From assembly GCA_032622095.1 (NCBI GenBank), contig CP136061.1:20648991-20712990 (forward strand): 64,000 nt of DNA. The letters run 5' to 3'. A program made the translations under genes and the position numbers. This DNA comes from Siphonodentalium dalli (Eukaryota > Mollusca > Scaphopoda > Gadilida > Siphonodentaliidae). Each line of letters starts with the position of its first letter. The first letter of the stretch is position 1. Shown here in pieces: positions 13,801 through 63,200 of this stretch. The notes beneath the pieces are model-generated. The model ran no database searches. It saw only the letters and a list, made by a program, of their open reading frames with translations, and had not been told where the DNA came from.

Positions 13801-13866
13801 AAAAAAACAGTGAGAGTTACGATAGTTACTGCATGGTCATTTCAATATGTTTCTAATTTCTTTTTG

Positions 13867-13876: not shown

Positions 13877-13888
13877 GCAAACATAAGA

Positions 13889-14578
13889 ATGGACATCAAT
13901 GACGTATACACGAGCCTCCCTCCTGGGGCCCTGAAGAGGAGCAAGAGTCTAAATCTACATTCAAAGCCAAAAAAGAACAATTTTGTCTCATATTTTCTGT
14001 CGAAAAATCTACCCCAGAATCGACTAACAAAAGGGGAATACACAGATGAAGAATATGCAAGTCTACGCCTCGACTTTCATAAGCCAAAGAAAAATACCTC
14101 GACGTTAGGTCAGGTTCAGAAGAAGAAATTCAAGTTAAATTCTGCAGAGAGGAAGAAATTAACAGCTTTTGACTTGAAGAATATCAAAGACTTAACTTTT
14201 GAAAAGTTTTTGCCTCTGCATGAATTGTGGTTGAAGTATATGGGAGAACTCATAGATTTTAGAGCATTGACGGAGACTAGTCTGCCTAACGCTCAGGCAA
14301 AATGTTTGAAAGCAGACTATCATGGATGCATCATGAAAGTTGTGAGATCTAAATGTCCGTCGTATGTTGGAACATGTGGAATTATAGTCAAAGAAACTAA
14401 GCACATGTTTCAAATTATAACAAGGGACAATAGCTTGAAATCAATTCCAAAATTGAACTCTGTTTTTGGCTTTGAAGTTCATGGCTATATGTTCACTCTC
14501 TATGGAAATACATTTGTTTCCAAGTCAAGTGAGAGATGCTCAAAGAAATTCAAAAGGAAACCAACAATAGATTTGTGA
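13889..14578 (+). CDS. POP4: POP4, ribonuclease P/MRP protein subunit p29
   Basis: This is a 229-residue ORF. POP4/Rpp29 is an RNA-binding subunit of RNase P (tRNA 5' maturation) and RNase MRP (rRNA processing), acting in the nucleus and nucleolus. The C-terminal half holds the conserved Sm-like fold segment: FLPLHELWLKYM, LKADYHGCIMKVVRSKCPSY, VGTCGIIVKETKHMFQII, IPKLNSVFGFEVHGYMF, and the terminal SSERCSKKFKRKPTIDL, which closely matches the vertebrate C-terminus. The basic, variable N-terminus is normal, and human POP4 is 220 residues. A strong 3' splice site (TTTTCTTCAG, ending 13876) lies 12 nt before the ATG, so the first exon(s) are probably non-coding. The whole CDS is one exon. Confidence 0.94.
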   Translation: MDINDVYTSLPPGALKRSKSLNLHSKPKKNNFVSYFLSKNLPQNRLTKGEYTDEEYASLRLDFHKPKKNTSTLGQVQKKKFKLNSAERKKLTAFDLKNIKDLTFEKFLPLHELWLKYMGELIDFRALTETSLPNAQAKCLKADYHGCIMKVVRSKCPSYVGTCGIIVKETKHMFQIITRDNSLKSIPKLNSVFGFEVHGYMFTLYGNTFVSKSSERCSKKFKRKPTIDL

Positions 14579-21238: not shown

Positions 21239-24200
21239 CTGAAATAATAGATGTAACATCTCACAATGACATTCATAATGGCAGCAAGCCTGCAAATAGT
21301 GTGTCTCGTTTGCAGAATGGGGTCCCCAGAGGGTGAATTTAGTGACACTATCTTGCATTGTGGGCTAACATCACCAAATTCACCCTCTGGGAACCTCATT
21401 CTGCTTATGCCTCAACTGCTATGGTAGACCTGGGATCAGATTGAAGCAGACGACAGACAGAAAAGCAGATAAAACAGGCACTGAATGATTCATATTCATT
21501 TGTGGGAAATGTTCAGAAAATAAGTTCAACAAACGACCTATGGTGGGTTGTTGAACGTATTATTTGGACATTTCCTAAGGAATAACTACTCATTAATGAG
21601 TATTCAGTATAGAAAGGGTTAAACGAAAAATAACTTCATCTAAAATCACCATATAATGGTTATAAAATGTCACAATTGTTAAAGTAACCCGGCTTATTTC
21701 ATAGAAAACATATTTGTTCTGAATTCCACAAGAGTTGCCAACTGTAAGTAGTAATTTAATGGTAAAAATATATTTTATCACATGTTTACATAATTTTACA
21801 AGAATTCAAACTCATTTGACCTCACGACCTCTTAACAGTTCAGGTCTTCTCTGAATGTATTACAAACAAACAGATAAAACAAGAGTTATTCATAATTACT
21901 TGGCATATATGTAATTTAACATAAATATTAGATTATAATACATCATTATGACAGTAAGATATCACTTGGTAAATATTGGTATAGCATTTTGTATTGATTT
22001 GTATGAGAGTTGATTAAAATTGTCGAAAAAATGGAGGTAAACCAGTATCATCCCTGCAGATTTGACCAGGTTTACATAGAATGAAACTTGGACTAACTGT
22101 GACAGTACTTTCATGATATACCATTCTTCACCGAGAGTAAAACTATCACATGCAGGCATAGTAATTTTTTGCAATATATGTTGTGTGCTCAACATTTAAC
22201 ATACTCAGATTGTACTTGTCAGTATAAAAAAAAATATTCAAACTTTAAAACCAATATTCAGGCAGATGTAATCCAGTTTTTCAACTTAAAAAGTAAACGT
22301 TCTTCGTGTCCAGATGATAAAATCAATTCTTGTCAAATAAAAAAAATTATATTTCAACCAACATCATCACAAACTGGACTACTCTAATACCAATCCAGAT
22401 GATCCTTAACCCTTCCATGACTGGAGCTTCCTGAAATTTTGCTAAAACCCAGCCAATGCATTCTCTTATATATGTGAGTCTCCTATAGGGGCCTTGCATA
22501 TATAAGAGAATACATTTGCCTAACAATATTTACCTTGTAAGCCATTGCATTCTCTTATATATGGAGGCTCCCTATGGGAAACTCACATATATTTAATAAT
22601 GTACTGGCACAGGATCTTTAATGCTGCACCAGCGCAGCTTCCATCAAGAAAGGGTTAACGAGAAAAATATGACATTGCAGTCTGCGATACTAATTTGATG
22701 TAAATTGATCAAGAGAAATTCTCCTATACAAACCTTTTAGATGGTATGCCACATAAAGCAATGCTGATTTTGAGGAAGAAAGGAAAGGATATTTGGGTTT
22801 GAAGTTGCCAACAGCTGTCATTGCTTTCACGATTGCCGTCGATACAGTTTGTTCCATGTAACCGAGCATCGGCAAACCAGTCGGATTCAGTGGCTCCAAC
22901 CTTGGTGGCAATTTGTGAGGCAAAGTCAAGTTCCAATACTTCTCAGGTGACCTGTTGAATAAATACAGTTCAATAAAATGTCATACGGAAAGTTTAATGC
23001 TCAAACTATGGTGCTGCTTATTTTCAGAATTAGGTCCCCAGAGGGTGAATTTAGTGATGCTACCCCACGGAGTGGACTAAATTCACTCACTGCGGGACCT
23101 CATTCTGCTCAGGCCTCATCTTTTCTGGAATGTATCTTTGTTATCAAATTAACAAGTTTTTATTAGTTTCTTTAGAAACTTCTTCACTAAGATTCTTTTT
23201 TTTTTTTAGTTTAGTTTCTCTATATCCCCCAAATTGGCAGACGACACAATACATAAGTACCCCAACTATAAAACAAATCTATAATATTTAATATCTCAAC
23301 AAATATTTTTTTTTACTGCCACTTACTTCATGAATTTAAGAACATTTTCTTCAGTTTCCATATAGTAAAACTTCTCTTTGTATTCCACCACAAATTCTGG
23401 CTTCCCTGGTTTTATGGCCTCATATCTGGAAGAAGGAGCACTATTGCAGACATGCATGAGATAGGTGATCAATTTAAACATACATGCATGAACTAGGTGA
23501 TCAATTTAAACACAAATGTTAAAACCATTAATATCACCAAAGATGAATCTATGTCAGAGTAGTTTTTGGCTATTTCATTGCATTAACCCTTTACCCAACA
23601 AACCGGCCAAAATAAAGCTTCAACAGCCTAAAATATCTTCGGTCTGTCTCAATAGAACCATACAAATATGGATATCATTGGAACCGGCTCCTTGACCACA
23701 TTGTGATAGTTACAGTTAGCCCTGTGCCAATGCATTCTCTTATATATGCGAGTCGACCATAGGTCGCTTGGCATATATAAGAGAATGCATTGGCCTAAAA
23801 AAAATCTGTTTTTAACACTTTTTACCATTTTTTCTTACATTCTTTAACAATTTTATAATTTTTAATGTGTTAAGCCAATGCATTCTCTTATATATGCGAG
23901 GCGACCTATGGTCGACTCGCATATATAAGAGAATGCATTGGCACAGGGCCCTTCTGTTGGGTAAAGGGTTAAAGTTGAGCAATGTTGATAAATGAAATTT
24001 ACCTGAATGTCAAGTACTATATTTAGCGTTCATCTTCCAATGTATGTACAAATGAAGAAAAGATTGATGTTTATGGAACACATATTTTGGTATCACATCA
24101 TACCAAGCCTTTGATCTCAGGATGAAGAGTTGAGTGGCTGGATTATGTATTTTGATTGTTTTAACTTCAAAATTATTTGCCAATCATTGTCATGTGCTAC

Positions 24201-30200: not shown

Positions 30201-33200
30201 AGTCGGAAATATGGCTTGTTGCCATTCATCGGAAAGCTCTCCCCAAGAGCTTTCCGATGAATGGCAATAAGCCATATTTCCGACTAAATCCTGAAAAGTT
30301 GCCCATAATTCTGCTGTGTTTAAGGAGTCGATTAATTAGAGCATTACTGTATAAGTATTGTAACTTGACACTTTCAACCAACCTGTTACCAGAGATTCTG
30401 TCCTGAGTTGCCCGAGCCATGCCCTCCTTACTGTCGCACTCAAGCTCTATGATTCTCACAGGTATGATGCTCCTCTTCGTCATGATTTCAACCTCCTTAG
30501 CTGAACCCGGAAACCCGTCGAGAACGTATCTAAATGAAAGAAGGGTGGTGTTAGTCTCAAACTCAACTGTACATCAAGATCTTCAATCTTAGCGCCCTGA
30601 AAATTGGCTCCTTCTTGATAAGCTCTTGGTATATGCGGATTTCTGTTACAAAAATAGCCCCTAATTGTGTTAAGAAATTCTAAATAAAATTTATATTAAT
30701 TGAAAGTTACTTTTCCGGACAGGTGTCCTCGATTGATATCTATTATTTTATGCCCCCCAAGCCTGCAAATAGCGTGTCTATCATTTGCAGAATGAGGTCC
30801 CCAGAGTGTGAATTTAGTGATGCTATCCCGCATAGCGGGCTAGCATCACTAAATTCACTCCCTGGGGACCTCATTCTGCCTAGGCCTCATCTTCTGGGAA
30901 GTATCTATGGTATCAAATTAACATTGTTTTTAGTTACGTTTTCCCATTTGGGAAGTTTCTATATCCCCTAATTTGCAGAAGATAAAATCCATAATCAAGG
31001 CGCCCAATGGGTGAACATCACCAATTTCAACTGGGGAAATTCAATTTGATCCTATGTCTGCCATAGCAGTTGAGGGCCTAAGCAGAATGAGGTCCCCAGA
31101 GGGTGAATTTAGTGATGCTAGCCCGCTATGCGGGGTAGCGTCACTAAATTCACCCTCTGGGGACCTCATTCTGCAAATGACAGACACGCTATTTGCAGGC
31201 TTGTATGCCACGCAATCTATATAAAACTTTCTGGGAAGTGATAGACCATCTTTAATCATGCAGCATATAAGCTGTTTTCTCTAAATAAATGAAATCACTG
31301 ATGTACTCAAATGTCCTTCTGTACTGTATTAACCCTTTCAGTGCCAAGACCGATTTTTTTATCAACCGATTATGATTATAATGTGATACATTGATGGAAA
31401 GAGCTCTTTCCATCAATGTATCACATTATTATAATCAATAAATTTGAAAAATGATCAAGGAAATATGGGTTGATACAAAAATCGGACTTGGCACTGAAAG
31501 GGTTAAATGTCATGGTCTATTGGTGAGATGTATGCAGGGTTCGCGCTGCCACTTGCCAAATTTGCCAATGGCAAAAATAATTCACATTTGGCAAAAAATA
31601 TTTTCATTTGGCAAGTCACTTTTGATTCCTCAAGAAAGTTTATTAATATTTGTCAATCAATACCATTCATTTCAGGAAACTCCTTCATTATTAATGGTAT
31701 CGGTGGTGATTTACACATGCATAAAGTTATGAAAAGTTATCACCTCTATCAAGATGCAATTAATCTGATATCATTAGTATCGACGGGTAATGGGATTGCA
31801 AGTATGTCTGGTTGTGGTAATTACATAGCTAATCCTCTTTGTTTCGATGTGCCTTTCTAATGAAGAAACCCTTCTACATTGCATAATTATGTTGTTTTTT
31901 TTGGTTGGATTGTCGAAGTAGTCAAAATAAAAGAAACAATGTTGTGGAAACTGATAGAATTTGGCAACTCATAACAGCATTTGGCAAAAATTATTTTCAT
32001 TTGGCAAAAGTAAATTTCGGGCCAGCGCGGACCCTGAATGTAGGAGAAAGATACATATTATCAGTCAGAAACTAACTGTTTCCTCATATTTCCGAGGAAT
32101 ACAACTTGTCAAATGGGTGGTCGTATAATGCTTGAATTCTATCTTGAGCTATATACAATCATATGGGCATCCAATATATTAAACATGAGAAGGAAACCTG
32201 ACGTAAACTCACATTATCAGACAGAAACCAACAACTGCATAATTTTTTCAAAGGTCTATAACTCTGGTCAAAATGGTTGCACTGAACTGCATTTTCAGAT
32301 GGAAATTATATATAATAGCGACCTACCCTCTGGTTTGACATTTCATATCAAGCATCATAATTTCTAACGCTTGCACGGAATACTCCTCAGGTATAGTCTG
32401 TCCTTTCAATAGTAAGCTATTCATGAGGCAAGCAAGATCCGTTCCGGGCTGATTCTGTAAGACATGTCTCATAGCTTCGCCAACAGAAAGCCTCATCAGC
32501 CCATACTCCTCCACAAACCTGTTAGCCACTGTAACAACAAAATATTCATGTTTAACCCTTTAATGAAGGGAGCTGCGCTTGTGCAGCATTAAATATCCTG
32601 TGCCAGTGCATTATTAGCTCAACTTACTTTTGTAAGTTTGAGCTATTGCCATGGCTTGGCGTCCGTCGTCCGTGTGTGCGTGTGTCCGTCAACAATTTCC
32701 TTTGGCGCGGGCTACAGGTCGTACCTTTGGTCTGATCTTTATGAAATTTTGCATGAATGTTGACATTGACATGTAGATGGGAACGAGTCATTTTGGGGTC
32801 ATTCGGCCAAAAAACATGGCTGCTGGTGGCCATCTTGGATTTCAAAATTCAATCCATTGGCGCGGGCTACAGGTCGTACTGTTCGTTTGATCATCATGAA
32901 ATTTGTCATGGATGTTAATATTGACATGTAGATGGGAACGAGTCATTTTGGGGTCGTTCGGCCAAAAAACATGGCCGTCAGCAGCCATCTTGGATTTTAC
33001 TCTTTGCATGACTAAATCATTTGGCGCAGGCTACAGGTCGTAGTTTTGATTGGAACTTCATGAAATTTGTCATGGATGTTAACAATGACATGTAGATGGG
33101 AACGAGTGATTTTGGGGTTGTTCGGCCAAAAAACATGGCCGCCAGCAGCCATCTTGGATTTTACTCTTTGCATGACTAAATCCTTTGGCGCGGGCTACAG

Positions 33201-36200
33201 GTCGTACCTTTGGTCTGATCTTTATAAAAATTTGTCATGAATGTTGACATTGACATGTAGATGGGAACGAGTCATTTTGGGGTCATTCGGCCAAAAAACA
33301 TGGCCGCTGGTGGCCATTTTGGATTTCAAAATTCAATCCATTGGCGCGGGCTACAGGTCGTACCTTTGGTCTGATCATTATGAAATTTGTCATGGATGTT
33401 AATATTGACATGTAGATGGGAACGAGTCATTTTGGGGTCATACGGCCAAAAAACATGGCCGCTGGCAGCCATCTTGGATTTTACTCTTTGCATGACTAAA
33501 TCCTTTGGCGCAGGCTACAGGTCGTAGTTTTGATCAGAACTTCATGAAATTTGTCATGGATGTTAACAATGACATGTAGATGGGAACGAGTGATTTTGGG
33601 GTTGTTCGGCCAAAAAACATGGCCGCCAGCAGCCATCATGGATTTTACTCTTTGCATGACTAAATTCTTTGGCGCGGGCTACAGGTCGTACCTATGGTCT
33701 GATCTTTATGAATTTTGTCATGAATGTTGACATTGACATGTAGATGGGAACGAGTTATTTTGGGGTCATTCGGCCAAAAAACTTGGCCGCTGGTGGCCAT
33801 TTTGGATTTCAAAATTCAATCCATTGGCGCGGGCTACAGGTCGTGCTGTTCGTCTGATCATCATGAAATTTGTCATGGATGTTAACAATGACATGTAGAT
33901 GGGAACGAGTGATTTTGGGGTCGTTCGGCCAAAAAACATGGCCGCCAGCAGCCATCTTGGATTTTACTCTTTCAATGACTAAATCCTTTGGCGCGGGTTA
34001 CAGGTCGTACCTTTAGTCTGACCTTTATGAAATTTGTCATGAATATTGATATTGACATGTATATGGGAACGAGTCATTTTGGGGTCATACGGCCAAAAAA
34101 CATGGCCACTGGCAGCCATCTTGGATTTCAAAATTCAATCCATTGGCACGGGCTACAGGTCGTACTGTTTGTCTGATCATCATGATATTTATCATGGATG
34201 TTAATATTAACATGTAGATGGGAACGAGTCATTTTGGGGTCGTTTGGCTAAAAAACATGTCCGCCAGCAGCCATATTGGATTTTACTCTTTGCATGAATA
34301 AATCCTTTGGTGCGGGCTACAGGTCGTAGCTTTGGTCGGAACTTCAAGAAATTTGTCATGTATGTTAACAATGACATGTAGATGGGAAACGAGTCATTTT
34401 GGGGTCGTTCCGCCGAAAAACATGGCCGCCAGCAGCCATCTTGGATTTTACTCTTTGCATGACTAAATCCATTGGCACAGGCTACAGGTCATACCTTTGA
34501 TCAGATCATTATGAGATTTGTAAAGGCTGTAGATGGGAACAAGTCATTTTGGGGTAATTCGGAAAAAAAACATGGCTGCCGGTGGCCATTTTATAATTTA
34601 CTCTTTGCATCAATAAATCCTTTGTCACACCATAATCACCACATCCCTGATCCGATCATTATGAAACCTGTTATGAATGTTGATATTGACATGAACATCT
34701 AGTCTTACTTAGACATTTCAATTAGCACTTTTCCTATTCCTCCATTTACTGTCGACCATTAAATTATTCCCCTACCTAAGTTGAGCTACAGTGTCATTGA
34801 CACTTTCATATTTAATATACATGAGAGTCTCGCATATATAAGAGAATGCATTGGCTTACAAGGCCAAGGTAAATATTGTTAGGTCAATGTATTCTCTTAT
34901 ATATGAGTCTACCATTGGGAGCCTTGCATATATTAAAAGAATGCACTGTAACTACAAGGTCAAGGTAAATATTGTTAGGCCAATGCATTCTCTTATATAT
35001 GCGTGTCTCCCATTGGGAGCCTTGCATATATTAAGAGAATGCACTAGATTACAAGGTCAAGGTAGATATTGTTAGGTCAATGTATTCTCTTATATATGCG
35101 AGTCTGCCATAGGCAACATCGCATATATAATAGAATACACTGGCTTACAAGATCAAGGTAAACATTGTTAAGCCAATGTGTTCTCTTATATATGCGAGGC
35201 TCATTATGGGAGACTGGCATATATAAGAGAATGCATTGGCACAGGGTTTTCGCAAAATTTCAGGAAGCTCCAGTCATGGAAGAGTTAACACTCGATTGAA
35301 ATCATTTTATCACACACATCTGAGAGTGGAGAGATAGGCAACAAGCCTTGAAATAGGGTGTCTGTCATTTGCAGAATGGGGTCCCCAGAGGGTGAATTTA
35401 GTGATTCACCCTCTGTGAACCTCATTCTGCTGAGGTGTAAGCAGAATGAGGTCCCCAGAGGGTGAATTTGGTGATACTAGCCCGCTATGCGGGGTAGCAT
35501 CTAGTGCTGAAACGGATATCCGGATATCCGGTTGACAACCGGCTACTATCGACAACCGGTTGAACTACGATCAACCGGTTAACCGCTATGTATTGCACAC
35601 ACGCGATTCCAACGACAAAAACTAACATATTATGCTCTTAATCAGCACGAGACTAACAACAGTCGGTTTTAAACAACGTGTACTTTATCAATTTTGCTAC
35701 AATCTTTATCACTTTGAGGAGTATAGTCGAAATTACGTGTATTAATAGTCAAAATCTGGTGCGAGATATTATTATTATTATTATTATTTACATTTGTATA
35801 GCGCCTAACCCACAACAGAATTGTGTTCGCAGGCGCTGTTACATAAAAGAATCGATAAAAGTATATATACAATAAAACAGATTGGATAAGAAATACGTGA
35901 GGGTTAAAATGACTGAATCAAAGAGATACGCGAATCCTAAAAAAAATTAAAAAGATGCTCAAAATACATCTGTAGTTAAAAGTCAGTTTGAGAAATAAAA
36001 ATCATAAACATCCATTAACGGTAAGATTAAGTCAGTTGACTCCATATGCAATTTTATAAAGGTGAGTTTTTAAAAGTTTTCGGAATTCTAAAACATCACT
36101 AATATGTCTGAGATCGTCGGGAAGATTGTTCCACAAGGTAGGAGCGGCAACACAGAAAGCTCTATCCCCTAACGTGCGATGGCTGGACTTAGGAAGTATA

Positions 36201-39200
36201 AGAAGTCGTTTACTGTCTGATCTCTTCTGCATCGAACCAGATGGTTGCCTTAGATTAACTAGTTCCTTTATATAATATGGTGCCGTTCCTTCGACCGCTC
36301 GGAATGTTAACAACAAAATTTTAAATTCAATCCTGTACGGCACAGGAAGCCAGTGAAGATCCCGCAGCACTGGACTCATATCAGTCCTCCTGGGCACCCG
36401 GGCCACAATCCTGGCAGCAGTCTTCTGAACTTTCTGTAACTTATTCATTAGCGTGCCAGTGATGCCAAATAAGCACGCATTCATGAAGTCCAGCTTACTG
36501 CTGACCAAGGATTGGACAATTGATTTAGTCGCCGATAGAGTCAAGTATTTCCTTATTATAAAAAAAAAGTCTTCCATGAATGACAAGTTACATACCAGTA
36601 GTCTGGCTTTGTCGGCTAAACATCGAAGATGCATGCCGTCATCTTTGATGTTCCGATGTCCAGTAAAACATGTGCACTGCCACTGACGCCACTGAGTCGT
36701 CGGCATAGATCAATCGTTTTCAATGGAGTACGGCCTGGTCATTTGACATCTACGCTACGACTCACTACATGTAGACGGTATCATGGATACTCAAGAAATG
36801 CATAAATCAGATGTCTGGGCGCATTTCCGATAACAAAAAGAAATTCGCAGAATGCAAAATCTGTAGAATTAATCCTATTTACGTACGCATGGTTTAATCT
36901 TCTAACATTACTGAGTTTGAGTAATCTCATTGGACAAAGTTCCAATGAACTCGCATCGAAGTGGTGTTGCCATGCAGTTGGACTTGTTTGCGTCCCAATG
37001 ATTAATTTTCAGCATTTGATTGTGTTCTAACAGAAAACACCGTTTTCAGCAGGTTGCATTTGTTAACTACATAGTTCATGAAACTTCATAATTGTGTTTA
37101 TCTGCCGTTGGTCATCCTATGCATCTCAAATCGCTGAAGAATACCTGAGTCGCATGACCTAATATTCGCCCAGTCTCGCAATCGCTATACTGACAATAAA
37201 AAAACTTCCGCGATTTGCATGTACGAAAATATATATAGGTCACACAATATTCTTCCCAAACGAGAACGACAAAAAGTCGGGCAGCATGAGTTGCGACTGC
37301 AATACAACCAGGTCAAGCATGACGCGTCTATTTATAAACACTGTGTTTTAGTTGACTGTGTCACCTGTCAAGTTGTCAACACATGGCTTATTACCGTTCG
37401 TGTTTGGTGATTAACATTCGTTTAATACAAGCTATGTCTGTGTAAACATTACATGAGTTCGCCATACAGTTAATAAATCAAATTATGATGATATATAATA
37501 ATTGGTACATATTATGGTGTAAATAATGGCTGTAAAGTCATAGGTTGAAAATAGCGGATATCCGGTTATGATCCGGTTACACGTCGCGGTTAACCGGCTA
37601 CAAAAATAGGTCAACCGTTTCAGCACTAGTAGCATCACTAAATTCACCCTCTGCGGATCTCATTCTGCAAATGACAGACACCTTATTTCAAGACTTGATA
37701 GGCAATGGTAGTTCTTTGTCAACAAGTTATAATCAGAACTTAACCATTCTATGGCTGGAGCTTCCTGAAATTTGGCGAAAACCCTGTGGCAATGCATTCT
37801 CTTATATATCTGTGAGTCACACATATATAAGAGAATGCACTGGCCTAACAATATTTACCTTGTTCTTGTAAGCCACTGCATTCTCTGATATATGTGTTAT
37901 AACATCCATTAATAATTTTTGCACAATTTTTTATAAAAATCCCTACAAATGAGTTAATGGGAAACAATAGGGTGCTTCTCTTCCTGTTGTCTGCTTTTAT
38001 TATATTAACATCGCGGGATATAAAGGGCACACAATTACAGTGTATGCCTATAGAGCTGCCTGACTGGAATCCCACTTGAACAGGAATGAATGGGTTAACT
38101 AATTCGAACTACTGCACAATTTAACCCTTTCTATAATAAATGGATTCTCCCACTCAGTTATAAAAGTATACGTTGGAACAGTCTATTATTCCTCTGTAGG
38201 GCTTTTTAGGAAAAATAGGCAGACAGCCCATAACACAAGTACAGAAGCGGTCCTATTTGTCTGTCCTTGAAATTGGCCACGGCAATAAGCCATGCTATGG
38301 GAAATGCCATGGCAACATGTGGAATCTATAATGCCACAGCATTAAATTTTTCCTAATTTCGAGGGCTGTATTTGTTGACTACTCGTCAATGAGTAATTAG
38401 TATAGAAAAGGTTAAGTATACTCACATGTTGTTTTGCCTGACTTTGGTGGTCCAATTATTGCCATTTTTATTGGTACAACAGGCTTCGGTGTGTTCTGTT
38501 TTAAGTAGGTCATTGGGTCAAGAGTGAACTGATCTCGTGCAAATAATGATGAGAGATAATAGACATGCTGGCGGTAGATGCATGGATATGTCGAGAAGCC
38601 AGGGCCGGACATCGGCTGTATACAATCTCCTTCATGCAACTGAAACAAAGATCATGTCACATAAAACATCTGAATAGATAGAAGTTTGATTGTACAAAAG
38701 TGATTGGTAAAATGACCATTTCTCTTATTTAAATGTACCAGTTGGACATCTTAATTGAGAATCTTTTATCGAATGAGTTGTATGATGCAAGTTGTGTTCT
38801 TTATTTATTCAACAACCCTGTGTTGGATAAGTTTAATCCATGACTGTGACTACCATTGATACTATAATTACCTCTATTTTCATTTAAGTCTGATGATAAA
38901 AAGTTAATTATCTGTGCATCACCCGAAGCAGATCATTGATGTTATATATGTACGTCATCAAGCCTTGAAATAGTGTGTCTGTCCCCAGAGGGTGAATTTG
39001 GTGATGCTAGCCCACTATGCGGGGTACCCGGTAGCATCACTAAATTAAACTCTGGGGACCTCATTCTGCAAATGACAGACACACTATTTCAAGGCTTGTA
39101 CGTCATCGCAGGCCTCAGCTCACAATGCGACTCGGGCGAGATTGTCGCCTTACTGTCGCTGACTTCGCCCTATCGTCGCTCTAAGGCGAAATCGAAGTCG

Positions 39201-48200: not shown

Positions 48201-51200
48201 AAAGGGGTAGGGAAACTTAAAATGTTCTCTCTTAACCCTTTCATAATGGGTTAAATACATTAAGTAGCATTAAATACCCTGTGCCAGTGCATTCTCTTAT
48301 ATATGCGAGTCTCCCATAGGGAGCCTCTCATATATAAGAGTATATATATGCACTGGCTTACAAGATCAAGTTAAATATTGTTAGGCCAATGCATTCTCTT
48401 ATATATGTGAGGCACCCTATGGGCGACTCACATTTTAAGAGAATGCATTGGCACAGGGTTTTCACAAATATTTAGGAATCACCAGTCATGGAAGGGTTAA
48501 ATTTCTCACCCTTTTCTGTTTCCTCTTCAATTTCTTTTTCTCCCTCTTTGCGACACGCTTGTCTCTTTTTGATTTCCACTTGTCAAATCTTGGAGGAAGA
48601 AGTCGTGATATGACATCACTGTCTTCGACATTAATGATGAGTGCAGCATCAGGAAACAATCCCAGCTCTTGGACGTATCGTACTTCCTCTGTTGTTCTTG
48701 GGAAGCCTTCCAGGATGAAACCAGTGGATCTGTAAGAATATTATAATTATATTGATACAAACGTGTTATGTAAACCAGTGGATCTGTAACGATATTATAA
48801 TTATATTGATACCAAACCTGAGTTTAGTGTGCCTGTCATTTGCAGCATGAGGTCCCCAGAGGGTGAATTTAGTGACGCTATCCCGCATAGCTGGTTAGCA
48901 TCACCAAATTCACCCCTGGGGATCTCATTCTGCATGGCCTTATCTGCTATGGGAGACATAGATAGAGATTTGAAGTTCCCAAATGGTGAATATTGTGATG
49001 TACACCCATTGGGAACCTTGATTATGATACGTGTCATCTACCAATTTGGTGATAGATATAGAGAAACTAAACTAAAAAAGAAATAGAATCTATGTGAAGA
49101 AGTTTTCATAGAAATTTGATAATAAAAAAATTACAGAGAAGAAGAGGCCTAAGCAGAATGAGGTCCCCAGAGGGTGAATTTAACCCTTTCAGTGCCAGGG
49201 GCCAATCTCATCGGCCCTAAAAAAAATATAAAATAAAAAAACAAAATAAATTTGGTTGAATTTGTTTTGGGTATGCTTAAGCATGCTATAGCGAATTTAA
49301 AAACAAACTGGATAAAACCTTAGGATCATGTTATAACTCAAAACCATCACCAAGTATTCATAGTAATAATTTTTATGCCCATGAAAAACATGATTCCCTG
49401 GCACTAAACCTACAAAATAAGTCTGTTAAAGAATATAAGAAAAAATTATTAAAATTGTAAAAAATTGTAAAAAATAATAACAAATGATGAAAAATTGTTA
49501 GGCCAATGCATTCTCTTATATATGCGAGGCGACCTATGGTCGACTCACATATATAAGAGAATGCATTGGCACAGGGTATATGGGTTGATACAAAAATCGG
49601 ACCTGGCACTGAAAGGGTTAATGGTGCTAGTCACACTAAACTCAGACTTGATTGAGACAAACGTGTTACATATCTAAGATGTCATTACACAATCAAGAAG
49701 AAATAATGCGCATCACTTTAATTAATAAACAAGAGCATTGCTGGGGTGTGGCTCAGCATCGATGGGGTGTGGCTGAATATGCTGTTAATTTACTTGTAAA
49801 GAAATAATTTGTATTCTATCTTAATTGTTATTGATGTATTTGTTGTCTCATATATCAAAATTATCTTGGAAATCTGAAGACACCAGATTTTCTCCCGAGG
49901 ATCAATCTGGGTTATTTAATACCTCCCCGCCCCCCCCCACCCACAAATTATACCTCTATAAATGTACATTATTTCCTCCCGTTGGAACTATTATCAAGCA
50001 TCACTATGGCACTATGTTATCAGGCATCACTATGGTTATCAGGCATCACTATGGTTATCTGGCATCACTATGGTTATCAGGCATCACTATGGTTATCAAG
50101 CATCACTATGGTTATCAAGCATCACTATGGTTATCAAGCATCACTATGGTTATCAAGCATCACTATGGTTATCAAGCATCACTATGGTTATCAGGCATCA
50201 CTATGGTTATCAAGCATCACTATGGTTATCAGGCATCACTATGGTTATCAAGCATCACTATGGTTATCAGGCACCACTATGGTTATCAAGCATCACTATG
50301 GTTATCAGGCATCACTATGGTTATCAAGCATCACTATGGTTATCATGCATCACTATGGTTATCAAGCATCACTATGGTTATCAGGCATCACTATGGTTAT
50401 CAAGCATCACTATGGTTATCTGGCATCACTATGGTTATCAAGCATCACTATGGTTATCTGGCATCACTATGGTTATCAAGCATCACTATGGTTATCAGGC
50501 ATCACTATGGTTATCAAGCATCACTATGGTTATATGGCATCCCTATGGTTATCAGGCATCACTATGGTTATCAGGCATCACTATGGTTATCAAGCATCAC
50601 TATGGTTATCAGGCATCACTATGGTTATCAGGCATCACTATGGTTATCAAGCATCACTATGGTTATCTGGCATCACTATGGTTATTAGGCATCACTATGG
50701 TTATCAAGCATCACTATGGTTATCAAGCATCACTATGGTTATCAGGCATCACTATGGTTATCGGGCATCACTATGGTTATCAAGCATCACTATGGTTATC
50801 AAGCATCACTATGGTTATCAGGCATCACTATGGTTATTAGGCATCACTATGGTTATCAAGCATCACTATGGTTATCAAGCATCACTATGGTTATCAGGCA
50901 TCACTATGGTTATCAGGCATCACTATGGTTATCAAGCATCACTATGGTTATCAAGCATCACTATGGTTATCTGGCATCACTATGGTTATATGGCATCACT
51001 ATGGTTATCAAGCATCACTATGGTTATCAGGCATCACTATGGTTATCAGGCATCACTATGGTTATAGGGCATCACTATGGTTATCAGGCATCCCTATGGT
51101 TATATGGCGTCACTATGGTTATCAGGCATCCCTATGGTTATATGGCATCACTATGGTTATCAGGCATCACTATGGTTATCAGGAATCACTATGGTTATCA

Positions 51201-54200
51201 GGCATCACTATGGTTATCAGGCATCCCTATGGTTATCAGGAATCCCTATGGTTATCTGACATCACTATGGTTATCAGGCATCACTATGGTTATCAGGCAT
51301 CACTATGGTTATCAGGCATCACTATGGTTATCAGGAATCCCTATGGTTATCTGGCATCACTATGGTTATCAAGCATCACTATGGTTATCAGGCATCACTA
51401 TGGTTATCAGGCATCACTATGGTTATCAGGCATCACTATGGTTATCAGGCATCACTATGGTTATCAGGAATCACTATGGTTATCAGGCATCACTATGGTT
51501 ATCAGGAATCACTATGGTTATCAGGCATCACTATGGTTATCAGGAATCACTATGGTTATCAGGAATCACTATGGTTATCAGGCATCACTATGGTTATCAA
51601 GCATCACTATGGTTATCAGGCATCACTATGGTTATCAGGCATCACTATGGTTATCAGGCATCACTATGGTTACCAAGCATCACTATGGTTATAGGGCATC
51701 ACTATGGTTATCTGGCATCACTATGGTTATCAGGCACCACTATGGTTATCAGGCACCACTATGGTTATCAGGAATCACTATGGTTATCAGGCATCACTAT
51801 GGTTATCAGGCATCACTATGGTTATAGGGCATCACTATGGTTATATGGCATCACTATGGTTATAGGGCATCACTATGGTTATAGGGCATCACTATGGTTA
51901 TCAGGCACCACTATGGTTATCAGGAATCACTATGGTTATCAGGCATCACTATGGTTATAGGGCATCACTATGGTTATCTGGCATCACTATGAATGTACTC
52001 ACTTGAAGGGTTCTTTGTTCCACCACTGTGGTACAATGTTATCCATCACCTCAGGAGGCAGTGGCTCCTCTGCTTCAAGGTTAGCTTTAATAGCTTCCTC
52101 GTCTTCAGTAAACTCAACCTCCTCTGGCTCAGCCTGGAGAGATTAATTAATTACTAATTATCGTAACTACTCCAAAATCTTCATAATTAAAATACTTATG
52201 GTCCAACAGCTAAAAGAGCATTGAACCTTAATTAAATAAGAAAATTCAGTGCTATAGTTATTAAAAATATAATTATTAAAAAGATACTGCAATAACTTAG
52301 AATACTATTGTGTTGAGGACTAAAGAAGTTGATGACACATCAAATGTCGGCTCCGGGAAGGACCTTTATCTAAATTCACCCTCTGGAGACCTCATTCTGC
52401 AAATTTCTGGCACCATATTCTCAGGCGTGCCTGCAGGATGTTTGATGTTTGTTTGAAGAATGTTCAGAATATAAATGTTCCTCACCTCTTCGGCATCTTC
52501 AGATTTCTTCTCTGGGATGTTTTCCTCTGTTGACCCATCTACCTTTGTTCCATCTGGATCAGTGATGGCAGCATCCTCATCATCACTGTAAAAAAAAGAA
52601 GAAGAGATTACTGAAAAAAAAAAACATCTTATGAAAAGGGTTAACATGATCACTATGAATGAATGAACAGTATCAAGTGACTGACTACCCATTGGTGAGT
52701 ATTCAAAGGGTTAACAAAATAAGAATTCTAAAGTGACAAAATGACATGACAAAATGGAGTTATCTCCCATGATACTTACGAATCAATCTCTTCCGCCTCC
52801 TCTTCTTCCTGATCCTCCTCAAATTCTGGGCCGATCTTTTTCTTCGTCTTAGCGATGATGAGCTCCTGAAGTCTCTCTTTGAACTGTATATGGAACAGCT
52901 TGTATTTCTTGGCTAGCTGTCGACCGTATGTGGACTTACCAGCACCTTTAGCACCAAGAATGAAGAGACGCAGCGGAGGAGTCTGATGAACAAAAGTAAG
53001 AAATAAGATAGAGAATTACTGTAATATATTTACATAGCACCTCCGTGTTACACTAAATCCTGTTTGGTGACTGGTCAACTGCAAATTGGGTCACCAAGTT
53101 TACATCCCAAAAATGTGAAGAGTGTATCACGAACAGGAAGTGTGGCACAGGATCTTTAAAGCCGCACTAGCGCAGCTCCCGTCATGAAAGAGTTCTATCT
53201 ATCTATCTACATTATACTCCATCGCCCTCAATGTGCTGAGGATTATGTGGAGGTCCAGGTGCTACCACGGCCGAGTAACTTTATAACCATGTGGTGACTC
53301 CATGCAGTAGCGTTCTTTAACGTGCACACACCGAGGCGTGTACACGGGTCAGCCATTAATGTCCGCGCCCGATCGGACAGCGTACTGCACCCACGACAAC
53401 ATACCTGGACAACAACATAAGTGTTCGTAATGGGGGGAAGTCTGCATTTTTGCATTCAGATCTTTATTCAGTGATCTCGAATGAGACTTTTCAGCCTGAT
53501 AAACTTGGTATCTGACCGAGTTCTGATTTTTGTCAGAATACCCTGACCAGGTTACGATCCCCGGTCCGATAGCACGAGAGACCAGTACGCTACCTCTCGG
53601 CCACCGACTTCCCTGGCCACCGACTTCCCTAATTAATCTGCGAGTCAAAAACCAATGATGCCAATTCCAAATGAAGCTCGTTGAGGACATTAGTTAAGTT
53701 AATTAATTTATGAGTGCCGAGATGGAAATGTGAGGGATATACTTCCACCTTCATCAGTATTCTCAACTGATGAAGATTGGTTTACGTCTGTAGAAGACAG
53801 TCAAATGAGGACAGTCAAAAATAATATTATTGTTTGAAATATTCAAAGAGTTTTCGATCTAACATGTTCGAAAATTTCTTCAATTAACCCTTCCATGACT
53901 GGAGCCTCGCATAAATAAGAGAATGCATTGACCTAACAATCATGACCTTGTGAGCCAGTGAGGTCTCTTATATATGGGAGGCTCCCTATGGGAAACTTGC
54001 ATATATAAGAGAATGTACTGGCACAGGATCTCTAATGCTGCACCAGTGCAGCTCCCGTCATGAAAGGGTTAAATATTGGAATTGAACCAATTAAGTAATA
54101 AAAAATTTGCTGGATCATAATCAAGAGATATTCCACAGAGAAGAAAAATGTGAATAATTACCTCAGGAGAGGTGTTCTTTGGTAAGAAATCCTCCGGATC

Positions 54201-57200
54201 ACCCAGAAATTTGTCACGTGTGTCATGAGACGAGAAGTAATAAACCTTCTCTCTGTATTTGGCTGCGATCTCTGGGTTACCCGGATACAGGACATTCGTC
54301 TCCTTCAGACTGACGGGACAGAAATGGTTCGTGTCACCAAGGGGCTTTTTCTTATTCCTCGCTACATCCTCCTCCTAGAATAAAAAATAACACATCCCAA
54401 TAATATAATTATAACAAATCTTCAAAATGTAATGATATACCAACATTACGAAATATCCAATAATTAATAACATGATTTAAAAATCATCACAAAAAAAAAA
54501 AAAATGATATCCCAATATTACGAAATCTCCTATAAATTATAGCAAGATTTTAACATCCTCACAAGTTGATATCTTAGAAACATAATAAATAAAACAACCA
54601 AGCACAATCAATTTCACCTTTAATTTGTTGCAATAACAAATGTTTATAGTATCGCATGATGGATTCAATGAACCATACACCAAACACATCCAAATTTTTT
54701 AATATTATTTATAATTAATTAATTTATAATACCTCCTCCTCTCCTTCCTCTGCCTCTTCCTCGGCGATGTCATTTTCTAAATCCTCATCTTCCTCTTCAA
54801 TATCATTCCCTCCAAACTCCCACCCAGAATGCATGTACTGCTCTGTAAATGAAATCCAAGAATAGTGTAACAAACCTGAATCCCTATCAGTGGCATTGGG
54901 GAGCTGATGGCTAAGAGCATGGTCCCTAAGTCTGCTGGATATAGTGTGTCTGACATTTGCAGAATGAGGTCCCCAGAGGGTGAATTTATTGATGCTACTC
55001 TGCACAGCGGGATAGCTTCAACAAATTCAACCCCTGCAGACCTCAGTCTGCTTAGGCCTCATCTTCTGGGAAGTATCTAAAGTCTCAAATTAACATTGTT
55101 TTAACTTTTTCCCTTCTGTTCTGTTTTTATATGAATAAAATTTCATAATCGATGTGACTAATGGGTGAACATCACCAACTTCAACTGGGGAACTTCAATC
55201 TGATCAGCCGTGCGGGATAGCATCACTAAATTCACCCTCTGGGGATCATATTCTGCAAATGTAGATACACTATTTTCAGACTTGATAGTCACCAATCCCA
55301 TTCAGGCAATCCCCCCACAATCGCCCCAATATACAGCCCTGGGAATTAAGGAAAATTGGCCTAGGCAATATATTTTCCTAGCTGAAAGAAATCGGCCTAG
55401 GCAAAAACAGATTTTACCTAGGCAATTTTGCAACAATATTGCCATCTCAAATCAAAATGATTCAATAATAACCTGAAATGCTTAGTTATTTTGGGGGAAC
55501 ATTATTTCCAGGCCACTACTCAACATATATGTACAAATCCACAAATCATCTCCAAAACAAGTGTCCTTATACCGGGTAGCTAGTTAATGACCCAGTGCCA
55601 TGGAAACAATTGTAGGACGATATATGTAAAGAGTAATTTAAGGAAGTCATTTTGGCTAAAGAGGTTCTATTTCTGATAGACACAAATCAATTTTAGTAAC
55701 CCAATGAACATGTTTTACCTAGGAAATATAATTGCCTAGGCAGACCGATTTTGCCTCTGCTTTTACATAGGCATTGCCTATTGCCTAGGCTAATTCCCAG
55801 GGCTGAATATATACCCTGCATACTACTAAAGATATAACAATCAGTGCTCAAGTAGCATAAAATCTCCCCATTGCATGTTCTTAAACTCTTTTTATTATTA
55901 AGGCGACTAATTGATCATTTGTTTCTCAACTGATAGACAAAACCAATTGAACCCTGCACTCTCCATAGAACACATCCCCACCACACCCTCCCCATAATCA
56001 CAGTTGCTGGGGGTGATGTCAGAAGTTGATCTGATAATTTGCCATATATTCAGTCAAACAAATGCTATCAATTATTATGATCATTAAATATCTTTCTAAA
56101 ATCATCATTGTATATAATAAGAACAAACCATGCCATGAAGACATCAAACATTGGTCATAACATTGTCATTATTCTAGCATCCTTTAAATAATTATATTTA
56201 TTCCACGCCCATCGACGTGAGGCAGAATCCCAGCCATAAATAATACATCTAGTGGAATACAAGCCGGAACTATTCTTGTTTACATTGAAACATGACATAA
56301 TATTCTTGTTTACATTGAAACATGACATAATATTCTTGTTTACATTGAAACATGACATACATATGTCCACAACCTGCTTCAGGTGATGCCCCGATAATTA
56401 CTGGTTATTCATCACTTTAATGAAAATAAAGATAGCATCAATGAATATGACAGTCATGGATTGAACTTATCAGACACAATGGTGTAGAATAAATACAGAA
56501 CACAACTTGCATCATAATCTCAAATTTGTTATCGAACTCATTGCGGATGGCGCATATTTACATTTCACTCTCATGAAATATATCCTTGTGCCAACTGCAA
56601 GTCATTGGATAAAAGATTCTCGATTAAGATGCTCATTGTGTTCTGTCTATATCTATTGAGATTTTATGCTGATTTTCTAATGACTGAGCAATGTAATTAT
56701 CATCACCGTCCAAAGAATTCTCCTCAGTAATTGAAATGAGTTAATTGCTAGGGGAGAGTTTTTAAAATAAGACTTACTTTCCATTGATTTAGTCGTTTCT
56801 TTTGTGACATCCTGAATGGACTTATCATTGATTTCGATGATAACTGGTTCCAGTGATGTGCTGGCGGTAATTGTCCCGTATATATTAGTGTAGTCCTTCT
56901 CATAAGAGACTTTAAAATAAGACTTACTTTCCATTGATTTAGTTGTCTCCTTTGTGACATCCTGAATGGACTTATCATTGATTTCGATGATAACTGGTTC
57001 CAGTGATGTGCTGGCGGTAATTGTCCCGTATATATTAGTGTAGTCCTTCTCATAAGAGACTTTAAAATAAAACTTACTTTCCATTGATTTAGTTGTCTCC
57101 TTTGTGACATCCTGAATGGACTTATCATTGATTTCGATGATAACTGGTTCCAGGGATGTGCTGGCGGTAATTGTCCCGTATATATTAGTGTAGTCCTTCT

Positions 57201-60200
57201 CATAAGAGACTTTAAAATAAGACTTACTTTCCATTGATTTAGTTGTCTCCTTTGTGACATCCTGAATGGACTTATCATTGATTTCGATGATAACTGGTTC
57301 CAGTGATGTGCTGGCGGTAATTGTCCCGTATATATTAGTGTAGTCCTTCTCATAAGAGACTTTAAAATAAGACTTACTTTCCATTGATTTAGTTGTCTCC
57401 TTTGTGACATCCTGAATGGACTTATCATTGATTTCGATGATAACTGGTTCCAGTGATGTGCTGGCGGTAATTGTCCCGTATATATTAGTGTAGTCCTTCT
57501 CATAAGAGACTTTAAAATAAGACTTACTTTCCATTGATTTAGTTGTCTCCTTTGTGACATCCTGAATGGACTTATCATTGATTTCGATGATAACTGGTTC
57601 GAGTGATGTGCTGGCGGTAATTGTCCCGTATATATTAGTGTAGTCCTTCTCATAAGAGACTTTAAAATAAGACTTACTTTCCATTGATTTAGTTGTCTCC
57701 TTTGTGACATCCTGAATGGACTTATCATTGATTTTGATGATAACTGGTTCCAGGGATGTGCTGGCGGTAATTGTCCCGTATATATTAGTGTAGTCCTTCT
57801 CATAAGAGACTTTAAATAAGACTTACTTTCCATTGATTTAGTTGTCTCCTTTGTGACATCCTGAATGGACTTATCATTGATTTCGATGATAACTGGTTCC
57901 AGTGATGTGCTGGCGGTAATTGTCCCGTATATATTAGTGTAGTCCTTCTCATAAGAGACTTTAAAATAAAACTTACTTTCCATTGATTTAGTTGTCTCCT
58001 TTGTGACATCCTGAATGGACTTATCATTGATTTCGATGATAACTGGTTCCAGTGATGTGCTGGCGGTAATTGTCCCGTATATATTAGTGTAGTCCTTCTC
58101 ATAAGAGACTTTAAAATAAAACTTACTTTCCATTGATTTAGTTGTCTCCTTTGTGACATCCTGAATGGACTTATCATTGATTTCGATGATAACTGGTTCC
58201 AGTGATGTGCTGGCGGTAATTGTCCCGTATATATTAGTGTAGTCCTTCTCATAAGAGACTTTAAATAAGACTTACTTTCCATTGATTTAGTTGTCTCCTT
58301 TGTGACATCCTGAATGGACTTATCATTGATTTCGATGATAACTGGTTCCAGTGATGTGCTGGCGGTAATTGTCCCGTATATATTAGTGTAGTCCTTCTCA
58401 TAAGAGACTTTAAAATAAAACTTACTTTCCATTGATTTAGTTGTCTCCTTTGTGACATCCTGAATGGACTTATCATTGATTTCGATGATAACTGGTTCCA
58501 GGGATGTGCTGGCGGTAATTGTCCCATATATATTAGTGTAGTCCTTCTCATAAGAGACTTTAAATAAGACTTACTTTCCATTGATTTAGTTGTCTCCTTT
58601 GTGACATCCTGAATGGACTTATCATTGATTTCGATGATAACTGGTTCCAGTGATGTGCTGGCGGTAATTGTCCCGTATATATTAGTGTAGTCCTTCTCAT
58701 AAGAGACTTTAAAATAAGACTTACTTTCCATTGATTTAGTTGTCTCCTTTGTGACATCCTGAATGGACTTATCATTGATTTCGATGATAACTGGTTCCAG
58801 TGATGTGCTGGCGGTAATTGTCCTGTATATATTAGTGTAGTCCTTCTCATAAGAGACTTTAAAATAAAACTTACTTTCCATTGATTTAGTTGTCTCCTTT
58901 GTGACATCCTGAATGGACTTATCATTGATTTCGATGATAACTGGTTCCAGTGATGTGCTGGCGGTAATTGTCCCGTATATATTAGTGTAGTCCTTCTCAT
59001 AAGAGACTTTAAAATAAGACTTACTTTCCATTGATTTAGTTGTCTCCTTTGTGACATCCTGAATGGACTTATCATTGATTTTGATGATAACTGGTTCCAG
59101 GGATGTGCTGGCGGTAATTGTCCCGTATATATTAGTGTAGTCCTTCTCATAAGAGACTTTAAATAAGACTTACTTTCCATTGATTTAGTTGTCTCCTTTG
59201 TGACATCCTGAATGGACTTATCATTGATTTCGATGATAACTGGTTCCAGTGATGTGCTGGCGGTAATTGTCCCGTATATATTAGTGTAGTCCTTCTCATA
59301 AGAGACTTTAAAATAAAACTTACTTTCCATTGATTTAGTTGTCTCCTTTGTGACATCCTGAATGGACTTATCATTGATTTCGATGATAACTGGTTCCAGG
59401 GATGTGCTGGCGGTAATTGTCCCGTATATATTAGTGTAGTCCTTCTCATAAGAGACTTTAAAATAAGACTTACTTTCCATTGATTTAGTTGTCTCCTTTG
59501 TGACATCCTGAATGGACTTATCATTGATTTTGATGATAACTGGTTCCAGGGATGTGCTGGCGGTAATTGTCCCGTATATATTAGTGTAGTCCTTCTCATA
59601 AGAGACTTTAAAATAAGACTTACTTTCCATTGATTTAGTTGTCTCCTTTGTGACATCCTGAATGGACTTATCATTGATTTTGATGATAACTGGTTCGAGT
59701 GATGTGCTGGCGGTAATTGTCCCGTATATATTAGTGTAGTCCTTCTCATAAGAGACTTTAAAATAAGACTTACTTTCCATTGATTTAGTCGTTTCTTTTG
59801 TGACATCCTGAATGGACTTATCATTGATTTCGATGATAACTGGTTCCAGTGATGTGCTGGCGGTAATTGTCCCGTATATATTAGTGTAGTCCTTCTCATA
59901 AGAGACTTTAAAATAAAACTTACTTTCCATTGATTTAGTTGTCTCCTTTGTGACATCCTGAATGGACTTATCATTGATTTCGATGATAACTGGTTCCAGT
60001 GATGTGCTGGCGGTAATTGTCCCGTATATATTAGTGTAGTCCTTCTCATAAGAGACTTTAAAATAAGACTTACTTTCCATTGATTTAGTTGTCTCCTTTG
60101 TGACATCCTGAATGAACTTATCATTGATTTCGATGATAACTGGTTCCAGTGATGTGCTGGCGGTAATTGTCCCGTATATATTAGTGTAGTCCTTCTCATA

Positions 60201-63200
60201 AGAGACTTTAAAATAAGACTTACTTTCCATTGATTTAGTTGTCTCCTTTGTGACATCCTGAATGGACTTATCATTGATTTCGATGATAACTGGTTCCAGT
60301 GATGTGCTGGCGGTAATTGTCCCGTATATATTAGTGTAGTCCTTCTCATAAGAGACTTTAAAATAAGACTTACTTTCCATTGATTTAGTCGTTTCTTTTG
60401 TGACATCCTGAATGGACTTATCATTGATTTCGATGATAACTGGTTCCAGTGATGTGCTGGCGGTAATTGTCCCGTATATATTAGTGTAGTCCTTCTCATA
60501 AGTTTTCAGTTTCTCTTTGAATTCCTCCATCTCTGGCCCCTCTGGTAGTTTCTCCTGTAAACAGCGAACAATGACAAGGTTCGTACACATTTCTCAAAGT
60601 GAAATCCCAGTACTTTTCCAGTACAATTCAAGTATTATGGACCAAATATCTAGTAAATTTTCAGACATGTTAATATGTTTTATATAATATAGATCAAAAT
60701 TGAAACCAAAGAGAAGTTGAATCTTAGAGAACATTAATACCAGATACTTATTTCCAGTGCTATAAAAATAATGTATGACTTTTTCAGTATTTTCAAGTAT
60801 CACTGAAAAAATGTAAATTTGTCCAAGTTTTAAAGAACCTAGAATTCCTAAATGTTAATTTTCCAGTTTCCAGGATAGGTGTATGGACCCTACAATGAAT
60901 TGGAATCATGTGAAGCTGGTCCTGATATTGGGCACTGATATAATGAGTTTACACACACCATATGCCATTGTCTTTTGTCACAATCAATGACTAACCATCT
61001 TCATAAAATATTGATGGGCCTAACAGCATCATAAAAGAAACTGGTAAATATTCTATGAGAAATTGTTATTGGACTTCTTACACAGGCCTCAAAATATGGT
61101 GCCAGACATTTTAAGAATAATCTTGAGGTCCGCAGAGGGTGAATTTAGTGCAGCTACCCCACACAGCAGGCTTGCATCCCTAAATTCATCCTCTGGAGAC
61201 CTCATTTTGCATGGCTTCATCAGCTATGGGAGACTTAGACAAAGATGGTAAAGATAGTTATATGCACCCATTTGGTGCCTCGATTATGCATTGAGTCATC
61301 TGCCAATTTGGGGATAAACAGAAACTAAACTTAAAAAAGAAAAAGTATCTTTTTAAAGAAAATAAATACATGTTAATTTAATTTGATAATAAGAAACTTT
61401 CCAGAGGACATGAGGCCTAAGTAGAATGAGGTCCCCAGAGGGTGAGTTTAGTAATGCTAGCCAGCTATGCAGGGTAGCGTCACTGAATTCATCCATTGGG
61501 GACATCATTCTGCAAATTTCTGGCACCTTGCAGTCACCAAGAATGAACAATAAAAAATCTATCTCAGGCTTCATGCCTTGTAATTGGGAGCAATGCTTTA
61601 TTTGAAACAAAAAAAACTGTTCTGCTATTCAAGCAGTATATATGCAGATAATTTATAGAATCCCAACAGATATAATACACATGTATATATGTCACCATTT
61701 TAAATGACTTAACCCTTTCAGTGCCAGGGGCCGATCTCATCGGCCCTAATTTACGGTTTGTAAAATCAGCTGTAAAAAAAATATTTTTTTGGGGTTGAAT
61801 TATTTTTGGGTATGTTTAAGCATGCTATAGCGAATTTAAAAACAAACTGGATAAAACCTTAGGGGCATGTTATAACTCAAAACTATCACCAAGTATTCAT
61901 AGTAATAATTTTGATGCCCATGAAAAACATAAGATTCCCTGGCACTAAACCTACAAAATAAGTCTGTTAAAGAATATAAGAAAAAATTATTAAAATTGTA
62001 AAAAATAATAACAACTGATGAAAAATTGTTAGGCCAATGCATTCTCTTATATATGCGAGGCGACCTATGGTTGACTCGCATATATAAGAGAATGCATTGG
62101 CACAGGGTATATGGGTTGATACAAAAATCGGACCTGGCACTGAAAGGGTTAAACAATATTCATTTTCAGTCATTAAATTAATTGTTCATAATCAACAGAC
62201 AATGTTATAGGGACCCACGGCACTCACAATGGGTAAATGTGCAAAAACATAAGTCTGTAAAAACATCACAAAGAAGTACATGGAGAAATAAATAAACTTT
62301 TATCTTTTATTCATTAATGATAGTTCTCCAATAACGAAATTTTGCGTGTTAAAACCATTGTTATGTAAACTAAACTGTTACAGTGATTTGTCAACAAACA
62401 TCGCTAATCGTGTAGTAAGTTCAAATCTTTTTGTCTGAATATGATTTTCAGGTTGTTTTTCAATGATTTGACCTTTTCCAATGTTTACCGTCAAGTTTTT
62501 ATTAAACTTTGTTATCTTATTGGACTAATTGGACTTTTATTGGTAATTTCACTGTAACAGTAATGATTACATAACAATAGTTTTGATAAGATAATTTTTT
62601 TTATGCAAATTGTCGTCTTGTTAATGGAGAGTTATTAATGATGAAAATAAGAACAAAATCAATCTATTTTTGCATGTATTTGTAGTTTTACAGACTTTTA
62701 TCAAATTTATGTTATATTGGATTAACACTTTGCCGGAACCCTATAGTGTAACATTCCAGGGTGCCAACTTTATATTATGTATTAAATATGTAGATAGCAC
62801 CATATAACCACCCACAAACTCCAAAACCAGGCATGTATCAGCTTGGATCACATAAAAGCATGGCATAAACGCTCTACGAGATAAATTTTGACAAATACAA
62901 TCTTACATGTGTGATCGTGCTAATTAAAAATTGATGTCTAATATTTAAATACATGAATTAACTCGTTATTCTTGAGTGCAGAATGTTAAGGGCTTTTGTG
63001 GATCTTATCATAAAATGCCAATTCAGATGGCACAACGGAGTTATGGGCCAATGCGTTAGTATAACCATACTTTCTGCCCAAATTAGTTTGCTTTATTACA
63101 GAGATGCAGTGGCACCACCCACCCCACATACATGTATATCTTTTGAGCTTCCTAAGATGGTTGAAATCATGATTACATCAAAGTACGAGATAACTCGTAG

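Follow-up and report, generated by a model that had tools for sequence, protein, structure and literature searches.

A tandem array of 25 exon ends with identical splice donors in the AK9 gene of the scaphopod Siphonodentalium dalli

In a 64,000-nucleotide stretch of the Siphonodentalium dalli genome (contig CP136061.1, forward-strand positions 20,648,991 to 20,712,990; hereafter the window), the end of a coding exon of AK9 (adenylate kinase 9) is repeated 25 times together with its 5' splice site, the splice donor. We consider it likely that this array is an extreme case of a recurring type of duplication, one that straddles a splice boundary and whose extra copies become intronic and are tolerated. 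The duplication process behind it is probably harmless, and the array is not proven to be a device for lengthening the protein. The elements on which the argument turns are, in window coordinates:

56755..60500, minus strand: tandem array of 25 units, each made of 127 exonic nucleotides (nt), GTAAGT and a further 16-17 intronic nt.
60374..60554, minus strand: AK9 exon, 181 nt when ended at the exon-proximal donor, peptide EKLPEGPEMEEFKEKLKTYEKDYTNIYGTITASTSLEPVIIEINDKSIQDVTKETTKSME, aligned within 805-965 of 9d2f_A.
60368..60376, minus strand: exon-proximal donor AAA/GTAAGT of unit 1 (the slash marks the exon end), followed by 24 identical copies; the last exonic base of unit 25 is 56778.
59174..60374, minus strand: last exonic bases of donors 1-9; no other donor preserves the AK9 frame free of stops, and these nine would add 0-8 times 50 residues.
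54733..54842, minus strand: next AK9 exon (KQYMHSGWEFGGND...), with the acceptor TTTACAG directly before it; its own donor scores poorly.

Tandem Repeats Finder (TRF) called the array at 56761-60502 with a period of 150, 25.0 copies and 98% matches. Cutting at TATGAGAAGG delimited 25 units lying head to tail, unit 1 beginning at 60500 and unit 25 finishing at about 56755 on the minus strand, and these two analyses bear out the copy number, period and unit composition proposed in the initial annotation. Unit length is 150 bp in 21 units and 149 bp in the other four (units 9, 13, 15 and 18), which share the deletion of one T at unit position 138, within the intronic part. The exonic part, 42 codons plus 1 nt, places the donor GT of each unit at unit position 128, and the intronic part comes to 22-23 nt in all, GTAAGT included. 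The donor sequence TCAATGGAAA/GTAAGT (AAA/GTAAGT) is the same in 25 of 25 units, GTAAGT is counted 25 times inside the array, and AAAGTAAGT occurs 26 times on the minus strand of the window and 0 times on the plus strand; at the level of sequence, the donors are as equivalent as had been claimed. Pairwise, the units differ on average at 2.57 positions, a near-identity that fits the recent expansion or homogenisation suggested earlier. The variant AAAGAAACG is common to units 1, 5 and 25, the remaining units having AAGGAGACA, and such end-unit variants appear to fit the typical pattern of arrays homogenised by exchange. Repeated unit pairs, looked for as a sign of block duplication with unit types coded by hand, gave no signal (one repeated pair, P = 0.82). 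Searching the whole 2.23 Gb genome with the unit returned at least 25 matches (match counts from genome searches are lower bounds throughout); all matches listed fall in the AK9 array, and no copy outside it is among them. A search of phage DNA with the array exon gave no match.

Judged by its protein matches, the host gene is AK9, as first proposed. The joined exon pieces from the N-terminal side (693 aa) matched the solved chains 9fqr_Xf (E = 8.7e-133) and 9d2f_A, "Adenylate kinase 9" (E = 3.6e-128), and the array exon with the next two exons matched 9d2f_A (1.5e-36) and 9fqr_Xf (2.9e-36); the molecule name listed for 9fqr_Xf is CFAP276, and its sequence is AK9-like. Both chains, which we take to be mammalian, align colinearly across the exon junction with a single copy of the segment joined directly to the next exon, so one copy is likely to be the ancestral state of AK9. 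A genome search with the AK9 peptide gave at least 27 matches; all matches listed lie in the AK9 locus, with no second AK9 copy among them. Pfam AAA_17 and ADK match the exons preceding the array exon, and their matches stop before the repeated segment; this segment probably closes the second kinase-like domain of AK9. The segment directly precedes an acidic linker, followed by a FAP206/YHS-like stretch. AK9 is a conserved cilia protein, in accord with the literature listing.

Taking in sequence upstream of the window, we placed 23 AK9 exon segments over about 98 kb, and further exons may exist. The array exon is the 15th of these segments, not exon 2 as initially numbered. Splice boundaries were set with approximate weight matrices, and on this rough matrix most segment ends show a recognisable splice site, the ends at 72829, 54733, 85393 and 83912 being among the poor scorers. 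Upstream positions are given in "big" coordinates, that is, window numbering extended upstream. The segments 111257-111156 and 111168-111076 overlap and must therefore be one exon split by a frame break; merged, the total is 22, and two of their four listed ends are not real boundaries. All segments placed read open apart from a single 1-nt frame break, in a six-C run of an upstream AK9 exon (L013 ~7180) between ...NPRPYLLPP and PRPPCKM...; a base error, an allele or damage could account for it. Beyond the exon joined to the array exon, the AK9 segments listed in the window are:

54162..54374, minus strand: AK9 exon, Pfam FAP206 above the cut-off and YHS below the cut-off.
48510..48729, minus strand: AK9 exon with one upstream duplicate of its acceptor and start, at a 54-bp step.
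38426..38639, minus strand: AK9 exon, YHS-like and P-loop by reading.
30383..30529, minus strand: AK9 exon, adenylate-kinase-like segment.
22734..22951, minus strand: most 3' AK9 exon segment placed, its identity taken from position and reading alone.

The initial annotation held that the use of downstream donors would add 50-residue repeats to AK9. This stands for donors 1-9, which from the exon start at 60554 give exons of 181 to 1381 nt, all of phase 1, and lead on into the exon at 54842 in the right frame, no stop intervening. It does not stand for donors 10-25: at donors 10-13 the frame is lost and at donors 14-25 a stop is met at residue 664, which leaves 16 of the 25 donors without an open continuation. 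Additions of 50 residues are possible for at most eight extra units. Like coding variable number tandem repeats (VNTRs) and repeat proteins, the array consists of nearly identical units, most of them divisible by 3 in length. Unlike in those systems, where the whole array is open, the 149-bp units break the frame, leaving it intact through units 1-9 only, and the repeats lie beyond the first working donor. By our estimate, a unit divisible by 3 with no stop in its 23 intronic nt would arise by luck about 1 time in 4 to 1 in 5. A single-sequence AlphaFold fold of three read-through units had a mean pLDDT (predicted local distance difference test) of 41.5, which is unusable and has no bearing either way.

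The array is one of several repeats of its kind in AK9. Repeats straddling a boundary, picked up by a 24-mer test and then seen in the sequence and by local alignment, are present at three donors and one acceptor over the 23 segments, the array included. Behind the exon at 110712-110556 comes a series of units, most of them 51-54 bp long, in which AGGGAAGAAG/GTAAAT is joined to intron sequence; each contains the final ~10 nt of the exon together with the donor. They form two blocks, 110565 to ~108250 and ~105.4 to 99.7 kb in "big" coordinates (L013:4246-6565, and L012:5738-10000 with L013:1-1402), in an AK9 intron upstream of the window. A genome search with this unit gave at least 69 matches, and since all matches listed lie in one AK9 intron, this second array appears to have originated at the AK9 donor, in place. 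Among its 130 units matching AGGGAARRAG, 97 have GAGTTAATT, 28 retain AGGTA and 5 show other forms; most distal donors have thus decayed, as expected if distal donors are unused. Read-through here meets TAA at once. The third donor case is the exon at 117044-116901 (L014 ~2600-3050): its final ~60 nt, the donor and ~30 nt of intron are present in four copies, and its read-through meets TAG after five residues. The acceptor case is the exon at 48729-48510, with a second acceptor at ~48783 and a duplicated region at window positions 48728-48800. Elsewhere in the gene, a 35-bp x 21.5 array at L011:2703-3452 stops ~30 nt upstream of an AK9 acceptor and does not include it.

Outside AK9, we sampled 64 exons of the same genome, 36 from myosin-head and 28 from kinesin genes (85 and 123 family matches listed, respectively), omitting many near-duplicates. 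Clear donor-straddling duplications were present in 4 of the 64 (L033, L035, L084 and L087). L033 and L035 belong to paralogous myosin genes, carry 67 bp x 2 and count as one event, and their read-through shifts the frame. The kinesin exon L084 has 60 bp x 3 and a TAA on read-through (by eye); in the kinesin exon L087, with 88/90 bp x 4, the 88 bp to the second donor shift the frame. One acceptor-straddling repeat, in the myosin exon L053 (28/32 bp, 14 starts), was found by eye, its acceptor being uncalled by the script. The span test called donors in 63 of 64 and acceptors in 61 of 64 sampled exons; it flagged five donors, the four above (at L035 by picking a neighbouring GT) and L050. We left L050 out as weak, as its 23-bp copy of the donor region lies 68 bp away; including it would bring the donors straddled in AK9 and the sample together to 8/87. 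The acceptor flagged at L074 was rejected by eye, the repeat being intronic, and the signal at L047 looks like a dispersed element.

Across AK9 and the sample, repeats straddle 7 of the 87 donors, which represent six independent events, and 2 of the 87 acceptors. This bias towards donors is not significant (Fisher P = 0.17); a shuffled control gave 0/320. In the sample, donors (4/64) and intron points (99/1440) are hit at about equal rates, and splice boundaries are not enriched for repeats in either set. Exon-interior points were hit in 7 of 110 cases in AK9, all confined to two exons with repeated ends. Under earlier, different settings, the AK9 counts were 8/128 for exon interiors and 193/800 for introns. 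The 11 hits among 471 interior points of the sample lie in six loci, namely the boundary-repeat loci L033, L035, L053 and L084, and L062 and L080. The L062 match begins in an intronic array, which ends before the acceptor and was not taken as a boundary case. At L080, an imperfect copy of exon-interior sequence is seen by eye in the upstream intron. Arrays of at least 300 bp and at least 4 copies are dense in this tandem-repeat-rich genome: the window holds 5, the 120 kb upstream of it hold 9 (where one array is split in two by a stretch edge) and a scattered 80-kb sample holds 3.

We envisage that a tandem duplication ran from inside the AK9 exon to a point 23 nt into the intron behind it, and that unequal exchange or replication slippage then amplified it to 25 copies, which were homogenised, presumably by exchange. 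The anatomy of the array, the near-identity of its units and the lack of a copy elsewhere among the matches listed are the observed part of this origin. Exon definition, the pairing of splice sites across an exon, has an exon size limit; the exon ending at donor 1 is of normal size and every further donor adds 150 nt, so donor 1 would be favoured. Because the exon-proximal copy keeps the original acceptor, exon and donor, exon definition (discussed in PMC8724738) would select donor 1 in most transcripts, and the other 24 copies would be spliced out as intron, donors 2 and 3 perhaps being used at a low level. A duplication lying wholly inside an exon would alter the protein and tend to be removed by selection; one straddling the donor would leave the original acceptor, exon and donor intact, its copies joining the intron. 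Such duplications recur in AK9, myosin and kinesin genes, and the intronic position of their extra copies would explain why they are tolerated. The other donor cases stop or shift the frame on read-through, and an intact protein can be made from these genes only through the exon-proximal donor; the AK9 array is the only donor-straddling case found with an open read-through frame.

Several points weigh against this explanation. The use of the first donor is something we infer, and the 25 donors are identical in sequence. Boundaries of AK9 exons are hit at a lower rate than AK9 intron points (4/46 vs 245/800), and so are not fully neutral. The sample is small and takes in, besides AK9, two protein families, whose paralogues cannot be counted as independent. 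Finally, variants in the coding part of the array lean synonymous (6 of 9 sites, classed by hand), with P = 0.004-0.015 if the sites are independent and 0.04-0.09 with a clustered trio counted once, the expectation being taken from the first 123 of the 127 coding nt. This lean could hint that distal units are sometimes translated, or that they have been converted from a constrained copy. A broader proposition, that tandem duplication straddling splice sites, chiefly 5' sites, is a general and ongoing process in this genome, is one we put forward only tentatively. Under it, several percent of exons would gain redundant donors, introns would be lengthened by exon ends, and an occasional open frame, as in the AK9 array, would let donor choice set protein length.

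The alternative that the array is a length-tunable module, as the initial annotation proposed, appears unlikely. Donors 2-9 would then be used regularly and add to AK9 50-residue repeats, made of the end of the second kinase-like domain and ~7 intron-coded residues. Units 1-9 are indeed open and in frame through the intronic piece, donors 1-9 rejoin the next exon in frame, and the synonymous lean points the same way. The idea is left unsupported by the loss of frame or stop at 16 of 25 donors, by the closed read-through of the other donor-straddling repeats, and by the two solved AK9 chains, which have a single copy. Quite improbable is an array expanded or misjoined by the assembler: the C-run frame break is perhaps a base error, but the units hold a scattered mix of variants with distinctive end units, the 3.7-kb array sits inside a 277 Mb contig, and smaller repeats of a like sort occur at donors of unrelated genes. 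We give still less credence to a decaying AK9 gene that tolerates the array for that reason; the frame break in the C6 run would suit decay, but the 23 placed segments are open bar this one break, most ends have a recognisable splice site, no other AK9 copy is among the genome matches listed, and the protein is conserved. Least plausible are cassette exons, in which TTTTAAAG in the unit would serve as acceptor and donor i would join unit i+2 or later to give in-frame 44-residue repeats: TTTTAAAG is one of 2 of the 9 AGs in the unit that preserve the frame with no stop on the path from a donor through the acceptor to a further donor (exon 132 nt, intron 18+150k nt), and the 1-bp deletions would be harmless between the donor and the TTTTAAAG AG, but by eye there is just a short pyrimidine tract with AAAG behind it, a branch point was not recognised, and nothing shows use of the putative junction into TCTCTTATGAG.

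Repeats that straddle splice boundaries and introns born by duplication are already known, and in the literature searched we found no large array of identical donors in an AK9-like gene, and no report of a genome in which several percent of the donors examined carry splice-straddling repeats. In human segmental-duplication genes, internal tandem repeats at exon-intron boundaries can alter splicing; in recent duplications they are biased to expansion, and in the longer class of coding intron cases the unit measures 62-126 bp (De Grassi & Ciccarelli 2009, PMC2812944). The AK9 array likewise straddles an exon-intron boundary and includes the exon end and donor. Those repeats, however, lie in recent multi-copy paralogues and have RNA backing, whereas for AK9 no second copy is among the genome matches listed, all 25 donors are intact and identical, and repeats of the kind recur at 7/87 donors. 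Tandem duplication across an intron/exon boundary also copies splice signals and is a source of introns (PMC4974935); that system forms a new intron, whereas the 150-bp AK9 unit lacks a strong-looking acceptor (by eye) and needs no new intron. Intronic VNTRs are reported to change splicing in ABCA7 and in TERT intron 6 (PMC5954066, PMC3948165), and the repeat number in AK9 could similarly affect splicing of its host gene; unlike those repeats, every AK9 unit carries an exon end and a donor. With 25 identical, evenly spaced donors set against one acceptor, the array amounts to a natural experiment in which the spliceosome has to choose between equal 5' splice sites, and which is informative also about how far exon definition can reach. 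That such repeats recur in AK9, myosin and kinesin genes suggests repeated copying of exon ends into the introns of this genome, which bears on how introns grow and gain splice sites.

The window holds further repeats and open frames. At 50010-51991, a 19-bp unit occurs in ~104 copies and the plus strand has long open frames, and at 32698-34521 a 164-bp unit is repeated 11.3 times, with longer periods of 319 and 484. A 250-codon open frame on the plus strand at 13826-14578 is one that we take to resemble RNase P subunit p29/POP4. The open frames at 7917-8636 and 36032-36709 look, by eye, like the C-terminal part of a retrotransposon reverse transcriptase.

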